From: Mangrovibacillus cuniculi
Lineage (GTDB): Bacteria; Bacillota; Bacilli; Bacillales; R1DC41
DNA: 64,000 nucleotides
Assembly (NCBI RefSeq): GCF_015482585.1
Contig: NZ_CP049742.1
Coordinates: forward strand, 2,573,001-2,637,000
Direction: 5' to 3'
Positions within the stretch are counted from its first letter, which is position 1, and each line of letters begins with the position of its first letter. The translations under genes were made by a program, and so were the position numbers. Positions 9,873 through 59,462 of the stretch are shown here, piece by piece. Below the pieces are notes generated by a model that saw only the letters and a list, made by a program, of their open reading frames with translations, searched no databases and was not told where the DNA came from.

Positions 9873-9905
9873 TTTGTCCCCTCTTTCCTTTTTTCTTTAA
9901 TAAAA

Positions 9906-9940
9906 AAGACGAGGAGATGATCCTCGTCTTTACTTTTTGT
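9906..9940 (-). terminator. Bidirectional hairpin downstream of yebC
   Basis: AAGACGAGGA pairs with TCCTCGTCTT. On the minus strand it lies past the yebC stop; on the plus strand it is followed by TTTACTTTTT, which runs directly into the stem-loop repeat. Confidence 0.75.
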
Positions 9941-10002
9941 TACGTGACCGGTAACAACTCATCGTTAGCCACGTGATGTGGCTTGTTCTTAGATGAGTAT
10001 CC
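9937..10002 (-). repeat. Two-stem-loop terminator-associated repeat, copy 1
   Basis: In minus orientation: GGATACTCATC, then GCCACATCACGTGGC, CGATGAG and TTGTTAC..GTCACGTAACAA. Stem 1 closes CTCATC with GATGAG around the GCCAC/GTGGC hairpin; stem 2 closes TTGTTAC with GTAACAA. It abuts the yebC stop codon on one side and the terminator hairpin on the other. Confidence 0.8.
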
Positions 10003-10725
10003 TTATTCTTCACCTAGATCAACGTTATGATAGACTTGTTGCACATCATCTAAATCTTCTAATGCTGCGATCAGTTTATCAAACTGCGCTAAATCCGCTT
10101 CTGACACTTCCACTTCTGTCTGTGGCAGCATGGTAATCTCGGCAATGGAGAACTCTTCGACACCAGCTTCACGAATTGCTGATTGCGTGGCGTGAAGTTG
10201 GTCTGGCTCTGCATAAACGATGACGGAATCGTCTTCTTCTAACACGTCACGAGCATCAATATCCGCCTCTAGTAAAATTTCTAAAACTTCATCAGCTGAT
10301 TTTCCTTCGAAACCAATAACAGCTGTAGCATCAAACATATAAGAAACGGAACCAGATACACCCATATTTCCGCCATTTTTACCAAAAGCAGCACGAACTT
10401 CTGAAGCTGTACGGTTAACGTTGTTTGTCAGAGCATCTACGATAATCATAGAACCACTCGGTCCAAATCCTTCGTAACGAAGCTCATCAAAGTTTTCGTC
10501 TGCACCACTTTTTGCTTTATCGATGGCACGGTCGATAATATTACGAGGTACGTTATACGTTTTTGCTCTTTCAATTACCATGCGAAGCGATGTGTTTAGC
10601 TCTGGATCTGGCTCACCTTGTTTCGCTACTACATAGATTTCTTTTGCAAATTTATTATAGACCTTACTAGTATTAGCATCTTTTGCTGCTTTTTTTTCTT
10701 TAATATTGTTCCATTTACGTCCCAT
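10003..10725 (-). CDS. YebC family protein (YeeI/YebC2 type)
   Basis: A 240-residue protein beginning [20 protein letters not shown], the signature of the second YebC paralogue of Bacilli (YeeI in B. subtilis), with the typical central [13 protein letters not shown] segment and acidic third domain. YebC proteins were long annotated as transcriptional regulators; more recent work places YebC-type proteins at the ribosome, relieving stalling at proline-rich stretches. Cytoplasmic. SD GGAATTCC is poor but the start agrees with the family. Monocistronic, with a downstream terminator and stem-loop repeat immediately after the stop codon. Confidence 0.9.
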
Positions 10726-47091: not shown

Positions 47092-47157
47092 GAGACTCAT
47101 CTAAGAGCAAGCCACATCACGTGGCTAACGATGAGTTGTTACTTTTCACGTAACAAA
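47092..47157 (+). repeat. Two-stem-loop terminator-associated repeat, copy 2
   Basis: CTCATC..GCCACATCACGTGGC..GATGAG then TTGTTAC..CACGTAACAAAAA. It runs directly into the terminator hairpin of the convergent monooxygenase gene. Confidence 0.85.
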
Positions 47158-47192
47158 AAGGACACCATCGCAATCCGCGAGGCGTCCTTCTA
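47153..47192 (-). terminator. Terminator of the monooxygenase gene
   Basis: AAGGAC pairs with GTCCTT with CC/GG inside; TTTTTGTT follows on the minus strand and is the edge of repeat copy 2. Confidence 0.75.
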
Positions 47193-47199
47193 CTATTAT

Positions 47200-47499
47200 T
47201 TAATTGTGCTTTAACTCTGTACCATCATATGACTTCACATCTAAAGGAGCAGATAAGAAGTTCTTCGCTTTGCCAACGAAATCTGTAAAGTGGTCACTTG
47301 CATTATGTGCAGACACAGCGTCAAGATCTTTCCATACTTCTACCATTGTATAAACATGTTCCTTCTCTGTATCTTTCATTAATTTATACATAATGTTGCC
47401 ACTTTCCGCTTGCGAACCTGCTACTAACGGCTTTAACTCTACAAGAAATTCTTGCTCTTTTTCCGGTTGAACGTGCATCGTTGCATGAATAATAATCAT
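47200..47499 (-). CDS. Antibiotic biosynthesis monooxygenase-type quinol monooxygenase
   Basis: A 99-residue ABM-fold protein (IIIHATMHVQPEKEQEFL, GNIMYKLMKDTEKEHVYTMVEVWKD, SDHFTDFVGKAKNFL), small ferredoxin-like dimers of the YgiN/YcnE type that act on quinols without a cofactor. It follows the nitroreductase gene by 13 bp. In B. subtilis ycnD (flavin/nitro reductase) and ycnE (ABM) form a similar pair, so a quinone-detoxifying couple is likely. Confidence 0.87.
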   Translation of the reverse strand: MIIIHATMHVQPEKEQEFLVELKPLVAGSQAESGNIMYKLMKDTEKEHVYTMVEVWKDLDAVSAHNASDHFTDFVGKAKNFLSAPLDVKSYDGTELKHN

Positions 47500-47512: not shown

Positions 47513-48151
47513 TTATTTCCACTCCGCTACGCGGTTAATTGGTAAACGGACTGAACGGTGCCCTTCGTCAGCTGCTTTCCCCATTGAGATAAGCATCACT
47601 GGAACATAGCGATCTTTTTCCATTCCGAATACTTCTGCAATTTTATCTTTTTCGTACCCACCAATTGGGTTAGTATCATAGCCATAAGCACGGGCCGCTA
47701 ACATGATTTGCATGGATACAAGACCACCATCGATTAGCACGATATCTTTCATGTCTTCACGAGAAATTTGCTCAAAAAACGGTGTGAACATGTTCAAAAT
47801 GTTCTCTTTCACATCTTGCGGCATGTAGCCAACTTCTACAGCTTTCCCATAAATCTCTTCTGCATAATCAAAGTTTTGCAAGTCGCCAAATACGGCAATG
47901 ACAGCTGCTGAAGTGTTGACTTGGTTTTGATTAAATTTCGCAATTTCTGCTAACTTCGCTTTTTCCTCTGGGCTTTCAATCACTAGAAAACGCCAAGGTT
48001 GCATGTTAACCGAAGATGGGGCAGTTGTTGCAACGGTTAAGATTTCCTCCATCTCTTCTCGGCTAATCTTCACAGTTGGATCATAATTTTTTATGGAACG
48101 ACGCTCTTTTACGATTTTATTAAAGTCATTTGTTACCTGCTGATTGTTCAT
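47513..48151 (-). CDS. Nitroreductase family protein
   Basis: A 212-residue FMN-dependent NAD(P)H oxidoreductase. KERRSIKNYDPTVKISREEM, TVATTAPSSVNMQPWRFLVI, AARAYGYDTNPIGGYEKDKI and VPVMLISMGKAADEGHRSVRLP are the standard nitroreductase motifs. The ATG at 48151 is chosen because AAGGAGAATTTGAA precedes it; the 21 codons upstream are open but carry that SD. Operon with the ABM gene; together they probably reduce quinones or nitro compounds. A structured RNA gene lies upstream on the same strand. Confidence 0.88.
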   Translation of the reverse strand: MNNQQVTNDFNKIVKERRSIKNYDPTVKISREEMEEILTVATTAPSSVNMQPWRFLVIESPEEKAKLAEIAKFNQNQVNTSAAVIAVFGDLQNFDYAEEIYGKAVEVGYMPQDVKENILNMFTPFFEQISREDMKDIVLIDGGLVSMQIMLAARAYGYDTNPIGGYEKDKIAEVFGMEKDRYVPVMLISMGKAADEGHRSVRLPINRVAEWK

Positions 48152-48277: not shown

Positions 48278-48343
48278 GATACTCAGCTAAAAACAGATCA
48301 CATCACGTGGTCAACGCTGAGTTGTTACTAGTCACGTAACAAA
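48278..48343 (+). repeat. Two-stem-loop terminator-associated repeat, copy 3
   Basis: CTCAGC..GATCACATCACGTGGTC..GCTGAG then TTGTTAC..GTCACGTAACAAAAA. Both stems differ from copies 1 and 2 yet still pair (CTCAGC/GCTGAG; GATCAC/GTGGTC). It adjoins the terminator of the small RNA gene. Confidence 0.85.
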
Positions 48344-48463
48344 AATAAGCCCCTTACAAAAGTAAGGGGCTCTCCAAGTTTGCGGCGGTCATAAGCCACG
48401 CTCCACAACGTGTTCCTTAAAAAGGAGTGCTTATCCGTCTTATGCAAACGGGCTCATCGCATA
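48341..48463 (-). ncRNA. Unassigned structured small RNA or leader
   Basis: About 120 nt bounded by a consensus SigA promoter and a strong terminator (AGCCCCTTAC/GTAAGGGGCT then TTATTTTT). The RNA can fold into a long arm: GTTTGC with GCAAAC, CGG with CCG, ATAAGC with GCTTAT, and inner hairpins TCCTT/AAGGA and ACAC/GTGT. The 5' GAGCCC could compete for the terminator's GGGGCT arm, so it may be a leader for the nitroreductase operon ~190 nt downstream. I cannot match it to a known riboswitch, 6S, SRP or T-box. No reading frame of note. Confidence 0.7.
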
Positions 48464-56360: not shown

Positions 56361-57593
56361 TTAGGCACCAAACTCCGCCTCGCTAGTTCTCTCATCTTGT
56401 TGTTTACCAAAATACTTTCGACCTGTGGGACTCATCACTACTCTGAGCGTTAAAAATCCTAAGAGTAAAAATAAAATACACCCAATAAAATAAACTTCCC
56501 TAATTCCAAACACGGATGCACTCCATCCAATGAGACTAGTGAAAGCAATGACTAATCCCGCTTCCATGAGGCCCAAAATACTAGTAAATCTCCCTAGCAT
56601 TTCTTCTGGTATGTGCTTTTGATAAAACGTATAAAAACCAGTATTGGCGAAAGATAGAGAGAACGTTAAAAAGAAGAATCCGAGTGCGGACATCCAAAAA
56701 TCAACGGAAGTGGCAAAGATCAAATATCCAACTGGTGTCCCAATCCCACCAAAAAGTAATAAAAATCTAATAGAAAATCTGTTGGATAAGGTGGCATTTA
56801 AGAACGATCCAAATGCAATCCCGACTCCCGCCACACTTACTAAGTACCCATACATATCTTCTGTAAGCTTTAACTCTTTGATAGCAAAGGAGGCTTCCAA
56901 TGAATCTAGCGTAGCCATCGCAATCATCATCCAAATAAAAAGTATATATATAATAGAAACAAATTTATTTTGATCCATGAATATCCTTGTAAGCTTCCAA
57001 TCTTGCAGTATGAGTTCTTTTGTTATTTTATCCACCACATCCTTCCCATCTACTGCTGGTAAGAACATTAGAAGCAAAGCTGATACTAGTAGAGCGAAGG
57101 AATTCGCCCAAATGGCAATCTCGACTGATCCAATAAAGATTAATCCTCCTGCAATACTCGGACCGATAATAAATCCGCTAGACTGTATAAAATTGCGTAT
57201 AGCATGAAATCGTTGACGGTTATCCGTTGGTACTAGCTTTACCATATATACTTCAGATGTAGTAGAAAACACGGTTGTGCCGATGTTAATCATAAAGACG
57301 AATACATATAAAGTAGGTAAAGACGAAAGGAATGGTAGGAGTCCTATCAGCACAGCTCTACCAATATCTAATCCTATCATCATATGTTTCTTATTCCACC
57401 GATCGATGAAGCTACCACTCCAAAAGTTTGTACAAAGCATTGCTAGTGGCACCAATAAGTACAGAATGGATACAGCAAATGCAGAACCTGTCTCCTCTAA
57501 CACGTATAAATTAAGGGCGATAAAGTACACCCATCCCCCTATATTAGATACACCTATCCCAATAAAAAGTAACCAAATCTTTCTCCAAAGCAC
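56361..57593 (-). CDS. MFS transporter under T-box control
   Basis: A 410-residue MFS protein of the MefA/EntS-like group: GVSNIGGWVYFIALNLYVLEE at the start, SFIDRWNKKHMMIGLDIGRAV, and a C-terminal half with TFYQKHIPEEMLGRFTSILG. GTG start 8 nt after AGGAGG. A complete T-box leader with its own promoter lies upstream on the same strand, separated by ~195 bp containing stem-loop repeat copy 4. This predicts induction on depletion of one charged tRNA, so the substrate may be an amino acid or a related compound rather than a drug. Confidence 0.87.
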   Translation of the reverse strand: MLWRKIWLLFIGIGVSNIGGWVYFIALNLYVLEETGSAFAVSILYLLVPLAMLCTNFWSGSFIDRWNKKHMMIGLDIGRAVLIGLLPFLSSLPTLYVFVFMINIGTTVFSTTSEVYMVKLVPTDNRQRFHAIRNFIQSSGFIIGPSIAGGLIFIGSVEIAIWANSFALLVSALLLMFLPAVDGKDVVDKITKELILQDWKLTRIFMDQNKFVSIIYILFIWMMIAMATLDSLEASFAIKELKLTEDMYGYLVSVAGVGIAFGSFLNATLSNRFSIRFLLLFGGIGTPVGYLIFATSVDFWMSALGFFFLTFSLSFANTGFYTFYQKHIPEEMLGRFTSILGLMEAGLVIAFTSLIGWSASVFGIREVYFIGCILFLLLGFLTLRVVMSPTGRKYFGKQQDERTSEAEFGA

Positions 57594-57641: not shown

Positions 57642-57730
57642 TATCCTTGAATTTTCCATCGATGAGCAAGTCACATTGACTCTGCTCTGTTCGAGTTTCC
57701 ACTTTAAAAGGTGGTAGACATTCAAGGATA
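57642..57730. repeat. 11-bp inverted repeat around a hairpin-rich segment
   Basis: TATCCTTGAAT (57642-57652) and ATTCAAGGATA (57720-57730) are perfect inverted copies; between them the minus strand can form GAGCA.AGTCA..TGACT.TGCTC. No target-site duplication is visible. Confidence 0.5.
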
Positions 57731-57791
57731 CTCAGTTAAGTTCAAGCCACATCACGTGGCTAACACTAGTTGTTACAGGTCACGTAACAAA
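57727..57791 (+). repeat. Two-stem-loop terminator-associated repeat, copy 4
   Basis: GGATACTCAGT..GCCACATCACGTGGC..ACTAG then TTGTTAC..GTCACGTAACAAAAA. Stem 1 is CTCAGT with ACTAG (one base lost). It abuts the T-box terminator. Confidence 0.8.
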
Positions 57792-58098
57792 AAGAAGTCC
57801 CACCCCCAAGTTAATAAACTTGAGGGCGAGACTTCTACATTCGTCAGTAGGAAGTTCGCGGTGCCACCTCATTTTGCTTTCGTGTCGCCACAAAAGCCTT
57901 TTCAAGTACGGCCCTAAAGTAGGGTATACTCTATCTCAATAACGGGAGAACCCGATACATCATCAACCAAAATGGTATCCTCTGCATAGCTCCAAGACTT
58001 GTTTCCACACACTTCCACATCCTCCTTTTCAGCTACCGGAGTTCTCTGTACTGCTTTCGTATGTGTACTCTTCTTTTCATGGCTTTTAATAGTAAATT
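57788..58098 (-). promoter_or_regulatory. T-box leader (probable tRNA-Thr specifier)
   Basis: The minus strand carries the T-box core AGGTGGCACCGCGA (57856-57869), a Stem I with apical ACTCC/GGAG and a stem CACATA/TGTGTG, and a terminator (GAAGTC..GACTTC, 57788-57835). In the specifier loop GGAA-ACA-AG-TCTT, alignment to the glyQS loop (specifier, then A, one base, then TCTT) gives ACA, threonine, at 58000-58002; CAA (Gln) is the next choice. The gene downstream is the MFS transporter at 56361. Confidence 0.88.
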
Positions 58099-58668: not shown

Positions 58669-59421
58669 ATGGAGTGGTCTATTTTGTTCGAGTACGGTTG
58701 GGTTTTATTAATATTAATTGCTCTAGAAGGTATCTTGGCTGCAGATAATGCTCTTGTAATTGCAACAATGGTAAGACATTTGCCGGAAGAAAAAAGAAAG
58801 AAAGCTCTGTTTTATGGATTAGCTGGAGCATTTGTATTCCGTTTCGGTTCATTATTTTTAATTTCTTACTTAGTAGATATTTGGCAAGTGCAAGCGATTG
58901 GAGCCGTCTATCTATTAGGTATTGCAGGTTACCACTTGCTAAAGAAACATGTGTTAAAGAAACACCTAGAAAAACAGAAAGAAGTTAAAGAAGGTTCTGG
59001 ATTTTGGACAACAGTTATTAAAGTGGAACTTGCAGACATTGCTTTTGCGGTAGATGCAATTTTAGCAGCAGTAGCACTAGCAGTCACGTTACCAGAAACA
59101 AACTTACCAACCATAGGAGGACTAGACGGTGGACACTTCATCGTTATCCTACTTGGAGGGATCATCGGTTTAGTGATCATGCGTTTTGCCGCTTCTGCAT
59201 TTGTAGGGCTTCTAGAGAATCGCCCAGGTTTAGAGTCAGCTGCTTTTGCCATTGTAGGTTGGGTAGGGGTAAAACTTGCTGTATACACGTTAGCGCACCC
59301 TTCACTTGGTTTTATCTCTTATGAATTTGCCAAAGGGCCTGTATGGAAAGGAATCTTCTGGGCGGTTCTAATTTTAATTGGAGTTATCGGTTGGATTAAG
59401 TCTAAACCTAAAACTGTTTAA
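58669..59421 (+). CDS. TerC/YkoY-type manganese exporter (MeeY-like)
   Basis: A 250-residue protein of about seven helices in the TerC family: LEGILAADNALVIATMVRHLP and VELADIAFAVDAILAAVAL carry the paired acidic motifs of the family. In B. subtilis the yybP-ykoY-controlled homologue YkoY (MeeY) supplies or exports Mn to secreted enzymes. Here the same riboswitch precedes it, with a small membrane protein gene between. Weak SD (AAAGTGGG) before the ATG; translation may be coupled to the small gene. Terminator follows. Confidence 0.92.
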   Translation: MEWSILFEYGWVLLILIALEGILAADNALVIATMVRHLPEEKRKKALFYGLAGAFVFRFGSLFLISYLVDIWQVQAIGAVYLLGIAGYHLLKKHVLKKHLEKQKEVKEGSGFWTTVIKVELADIAFAVDAILAAVALAVTLPETNLPTIGGLDGGHFIVILLGGIIGLVIMRFAASAFVGLLENRPGLESAAFAIVGWVGVKLAVYTLAHPSLGFISYEFAKGPVWKGIFWAVLILIGVIGWIKSKPKTV

Positions 59422-59428
59422 TATCTTT

Positions 59429-59462
59429 TTAGAGGCTAGCTTACAACTAGCCTCTTTTTTAT
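59429..59462 (+). terminator. Terminator of the TerC-type gene
   Basis: AGAGGCTAG pairs with CTAGCCTCT, then TTTTT. Confidence 0.9.

Follow-up and report, generated by a model that had tools for sequence, protein, structure and literature searches.

Four copies of an element of about 66 bases lie in the 64-kb window (by which we mean the whole stretch of DNA analyzed), each abutting an intrinsic terminator, and the adjoining terminators are unrelated to one another. What kind of repeat settles so regularly beside dissimilar terminators? The first-pass annotation had left two answers side by side: a mobile or amplified element that targets terminator T-tracts, or an RNA module that extends the terminators. 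All four copies were present where it had placed them (9937-10002, 47092-47157, 48278-48343 and 57727-57791), and a covariance-model search found no fifth copy in the window. With the features that they adjoin, they are:

9903..9936, no strand assigned: bidirectional terminator hairpin adjoining copy 1 (from the sequence; -12.7 kcal/mol)
9937..10002, minus strand: copy 1 (covariance-model match 9934-10013, 91.1 bits; RF01690, 35.0 bits)
47092..47157, plus strand: copy 2 (covariance model, 86.5 bits; open reading frames)
47155..47189, minus strand: terminator hairpin and T-tract adjoining copy 2 (-17.4 kcal/mol)
48278..48343, plus strand: copy 3 (covariance model, 86.5 bits), its complement following the BsrF sRNA terminator
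48349..48460, minus strand: BsrF sRNA, with the terminator T-tract adjoining copy 3 (RF01411, 57.2 bits)
57727..57791, plus strand: copy 4 (covariance model, 80.9 bits), its complement following a T-box attenuator
57819..58089, minus strand: T-box leader, with the attenuator terminator adjoining copy 4 (RF00230, 87.3 bits, E = 1.4e-17, under the gathering score of 93)

Copy 1 follows the yebC stop codon (10003-10005) directly, and the hairpin on its other side has T-tracts at both ends, the plus-strand TTTTT leading into the copy. For the copies at 47092, 48278 and 57727 the T-tract comes from a minus-strand terminator. Copy 2 sits between convergent genes, its complement following the minus-strand terminator of a gene for a 99-aa monooxygenase-like protein (47200-47499, minus strand), and copy 4 has the T-box on one side and an MFS transporter gene (56361-57593, minus strand) on the other. 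Elsewhere in the window, positions 59374-59461 gave a weak match to RsaOG sRNA (33.5 bits, cutoff 50) and hold a strong GGCTAGC hairpin with a T-tract after a TerC-like membrane-protein gene; the match is possibly the terminator of that gene alone.

Copy number and two-hairpin structure

With a covariance model (R1) trained on 26 copies, we found at least 146 copies in the 3.15-Mb genome, 146 of the 150 scored candidates having passed. An unbiased sample, composed of sixty stretches plus the window, held 54 matches in 1.26 Mb (about 41 per Mb), which corresponds to a genome total of about 150. The copies are fairly divergent, nearest neighbors often standing 4-7 differences apart over 66 positions, so that a recent burst is not visible; some are decayed, partly deleted or tandem.

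Each element comprises two hairpin units, one with a UAAG/AAC internal loop and the other a simple hairpin, laid out as AAGGA, outer stem, UAAG...AAC internal loop, inner stem and tip, and then the second hairpin, whose stem is TTGTTAC/GTAACAA. The second loop has 7 nt in most copies and 5 nt in several copies that follow T-boxes, and RUCAC occupies both hairpin tips in nearly all copies of the genome. The two-stem architecture and the compensatory changes proposed from the window copies persisted in an alignment of about 104-106 distinct genomic copies: 93.6% of stem cells were paired, 12 of the 16 stem pairs had changes on both sides, and double-changed stem cells numbered 175 vs. 54 +/- 11 in shuffles, with slid controls all far lower. 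Folding as DNA, the element also beat shuffles on both strands. Stems maintained as RNA on one strand should show, on that strand, more G-U than A-C departures from pairing; overall we counted 40 G-U (G-T) vs. 40 A-C, with no G-U excess on either strand, the numbers among the 60 best copies being 11 and 4. The overall equality fits, and does not decide for, a structure kept in single-stranded DNA, or else decay without RNA constraint.

Several loci depart from the single-copy layout. Tandem 5'-half elements joined to a TTTGGGTTTGTTGC(G/T)TAGTTA flank, with a period of about 75-105 bp, occur at C1:843208-843423 (L032) and C1:696762-697040 (L051). Two or three elements stand in a row at C1:1050750-1051060, C1:1353421-1353634 and C1:1818201-1818425, where the second loop is mostly the 5-nt one, and some of these arrays have additional hairpins that share the tip. 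At L012, L018, L021 and similar loci there are composite repeats (...GGCGCGCGTTTAGCCGC...GAGCTAGACAT), some 200 bp long or longer, that contain or adjoin another element subfamily (GAAGACAGTAC type), with no strand bias. The second contig (G000:C2, L258), of 16.6 kb, had no match among plasmid records.

Terminator junctions and replication strand

The adjacency to terminators noted in the window extends to most copies of the genome-wide covariance-model count: with the threshold for a hairpin set at -8 kcal/mol, 110 of the 146 copies (75%) had one directly before the T-tract, vs. 118 among 800 control tracts (other T-tracts of four or more) in intergenic DNA and 34 among 800 in genes. The junction at the T-tract is exact and the orientation fixed, the simple hairpin always being the unit that adjoins the T-tract. 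The first-pass annotation, in which CGTAACAAAAA ran straight into the terminator, was right about the position and mistaken about the polarity, for, with the element in its Rfam orientation, the T-tract belongs to the other strand, and it is the complemented element that comes immediately downstream of the T-tract. Read in the direction of the terminator, the order is terminator hairpin, T-tract (mostly 5 to 7), GTTACGTGAC...GTAACAACTC...GAGTATCCTTA.

The gene on the hairpin side points toward the element in 93 of the 105 classifiable copies. Thirteen of the targets are riboswitch or T-box attenuators (seven T-boxes, six of them besides that of copy 4, one purine, two SAM, one Mn, one lysine and one TPP), and RNase P RNA, BsrF sRNA and an rRNA/tRNA array, at its end, are targets too; since such sites are hit, the common factor is the intrinsic terminator and not the gene end. 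Of 310 gene-end terminators, 18 (about 6%) carry the element. Among the copies away from terminators, 10 are inside composite repeats, about 15 are beside a T-tract-like end of a composite repeat, and the rest are tandem or decayed. No target-site duplication was seen at the copies, the flank profile consisting of a T-tract on one side only; with insertion of single-stranded DNA a duplication is not expected. The combination of terminal inverted repeats and target-site duplication that marks a DDE-type MITE was likewise not found.

From the GC skew, we placed the origin at about 2.71 Mb and the terminus at about 1.15 Mb. The strand bearing the T-tract was the lagging-strand template for 100 of the 110 terminator copies (copy 1 being one of the 10 in the minority polarity), vs. 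198 of 292 element-free gene-end terminators (68%; P = 8e-7) and 749 of 952 genes of at least 150 aa (copies vs. all genes, P = 0.0016), where terminators were called by a simple hairpin-plus-T rule, genes were long open reading frames and transcription level was uncontrolled. Convergent gene pairs served as the test set where both strands usually offer terminators, and there the lagging-template polarity was taken by 25 of 28 copies (P = 3e-5; P = 4e-4 when compared with the terminators that convergent regions free of the element offer). No such bias was seen among the copies inside composite repeats, 3 of 10 having this polarity.

A divergent branch of the Bacillaceae-1 family

Judged by its structure, the element forms a divergent subfamily within Rfam RF01690 (Bacillaceae-1 'sRNA'), which was described and scored as an RNA (Weinberg et al. 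2010, PMC2864571); this kinship was absent from the first-pass annotation. RF01690 had 43 matches in the genome, 24 of them above the gathering score of 35 bits, and in the window copy 1 scored exactly 35.0, copies 3 and 4 scored lower and copy 2 was unlisted. Common to both are the two-hairpin plan, the AAGGA start, the UAAG/AAC internal loop and the paired tips. Elsewhere, however, the tips of the 30 best-scoring copies are mostly RUCCU (also the consensus read from the Rfam model alignment), with RUCGU in several, whereas here RUCAC takes the place of RUCCU-type terminal loops in both hairpins; that the two tips change together between lineages suggests one common reader. The subfamilies differ also in their surroundings: here the second stem TTGTTAC/GTAACAA adjoins terminator T-tracts, while the RF01690 copies examined in other genomes lack an A-tract or terminator and are followed by other sequence, many of them inside larger repeats.

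RF01690 exceeded its cutoff in 195 of 397 Bacillales genomes, being multicopy and very unevenly distributed even within genera, and in two complete genomes its plus- and minus-strand copies were interspersed along the chromosome. The terminator-linked signature GTTGTTACN(0-3)TCACGTAACAAAA occurred 64 times in the present genome and not once in the 396 others. At the named orthologous loci for the surroundings of window positions 47513-48151, no element was found in 80 Bacillales contigs, whose loci were too distant for empty-site alignment. The terminator-bound subfamily is a real, statistically strong and lineage-specific branch of a known repeat, and its target is both unusual and precise.

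Mode of spread and comparison with known systems

Of the two original suggestions, that of a mobile or amplified element aimed at terminator T-tracts has good support in the 75% of copies at terminators, the exact junction, the single orientation and the strand bias. Taking these direct observations with the structure and the patchy, multicopy parent family, we think it probable that the element is a non-autonomous mobile hairpin repeat inserted at terminators by way of single-stranded lagging-template DNA. We infer that the copies move; the intermediate would be single-stranded DNA, and the work would presumably be done in trans by an HUH-type or similar enzyme, which may since have been lost. 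In such a mechanism the element would fold as single-stranded DNA into its two hairpin units, the RUCAC tips would probably be the marks read by the mobilizing protein, and insertion would take place at the 3' end of the T-tract behind a terminator hairpin, when the T-tract strand is exposed as lagging-strand template in replication. Such a landing site is harmless, as it leaves the upstream termination intact. No autonomous version with the element's ends was found in the genome, the half-elements being decayed copies or tandem duplications only, and there was no Y2 transposase. Carriage by phage or plasmid was rejected, searches having produced no match.

The other original suggestion fared worse: an RNA module that extends terminators was rejected, since the element begins only after the T-tract, past the end of the terminated transcript, and its stem departures have no G-U excess (40 vs. 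40). A host-maintained structured RNA, or a 3' safeguard selected to follow terminators (for example, in blocking read-through or handling RNA ends), would account for the strong structural constraint with its conserved tips and internal loop, for the systematic post-terminator position, and for the scoring of the parent RF01690 as RNA (PMC2864571). We nonetheless find it unlikely, as the element comes past the termination point and on few of the gene-end terminators (about 6%), its terminator-linked subfamily is in none of 396 other Bacillales genomes, many copies are decayed, G-U departures are not in excess, and the replication polarity is hard to square with an RNA role. Hardly better are the chances of spread through RNA by the reverse transcriptase of a group IIC intron that worked in trans and was later lost. 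The element lands where class C group II introns are reported to insert, immediately after rho-independent terminators on the lagging-strand template (PMC8919778, PMC4424553), but the genome had no match to the reverse transcriptase domain RVT_1 (PF00078) or to the group II intron domain (RF00029), leading us to reject a resident group II intron as mover; moreover the element has neither intron-like ends nor a catalytic domain, and its stem departures show no G-U preference on either strand.

Mobilization as a REP-like repeat by the resident RAYT (Y1) transposase has in its favor a single RAYT-like gene whose HVH and Y motifs are intact, together with the use by Y1 enzymes of folded single-stranded DNA and of the lagging-strand template, a preference that is a mark of Y1 HUH transposases (PMC6006769). 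The partner that the first-pass annotation had proposed to look for thus exists, but with a REP family of its own and without co-occurrence with RF01690. The gene (L061 1234-2500; C1:2436168-2437434) is preceded by seven tandem 85-bp units with the core TGCGGCTTAAGCGCTTTTGTAC, a different dispersed repeat with 61 hits in 1.5 Mb, and gene and repeat are a Bacillales REP/RAYT pair. It is not flanked by copies of our element, one decayed copy lying about 0.5 kb off its 3' end, across another gene; the GTAG motif is absent from both strands of the element consensus; RAYT relatives and RF01690 were not associated across the 397 genomes (111, 86, 112 and 88; odds ratio 1.01); and RAYT was missing from 31 of the 87 high-copy RF01690 genomes. 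On these grounds (its own TGCGGCTTAAGCGCTTTTGTAC REPs and the odds ratio) we rejected RAYT as the mover and regard this route as quite improbable, and as the RAYT gene is the sole Y1 gene in the genome, there is no autonomous Y1 element sharing the element's ends. Passive amplification by recombination or gene conversion, in which there is no site-directed insertion and copies are kept only at harmless sites, agrees with the tandem arrays and half-element duplications and with the tolerance of insertions after terminators; it leaves the exact T-tract junction, the fixed orientation and the strand bias in convergent pairs unexplained, and we give it very little credence.

A bolder form of the mobile-repeat reading, which we put forward tentatively and as somewhat less likely true than false, is that a DNA-only hairpin reached the niche of group IIC introns without a reverse transcriptase, through an enzyme that processes single-stranded DNA and reads the RUCAC tips, and that by extension the Bacillaceae-1 family consists of mobile DNA hairpins and not of small RNAs. 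If so, an element without any open reading frame would share the safe landing site of group IIC introns, which suggests that mobile DNA in general can enter at terminator hairpins on the lagging-strand template; it would be doubtful whether a widespread Rfam family is rightly labeled as small RNA, and there would be a clear genetic signature by which to trace the mobilizing enzyme.

Among known systems, the SPRITE, RUP and BOX repeats of pneumococcus (PMC3049150) are likewise small, interspersed and enriched near gene 3' ends, but SPRITE is itself terminator-like (PMC3049150) whereas the element here comes after pre-existing, unrelated terminators. IS200/IS605 and REP/RAYT elements resemble it in their folded single-stranded ends, lagging-template preference (PMC6006769), fixed sequence on one side and absence of target duplication; the polarity of the copies agrees with the IS200/IS605 use of a target on the lagging-strand template, which in our case would be single-stranded as well. 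Unlike both, our element has no transposase of its own and no GTAG, and its target is a terminator plus T-tract. With group IIC introns it shares insertion right behind intrinsic terminators (110 of 146) and lagging-template polarity (100 of 110; 25 of 28 in convergent pairs), yet it has only 66 bases, with no ribozyme, encoded protein, genomic reverse transcriptase or intron RNA. By the tests made it belongs neither to group IIC introns nor to REP/RAYT, and it is the group IIC introns that its landing resembles.
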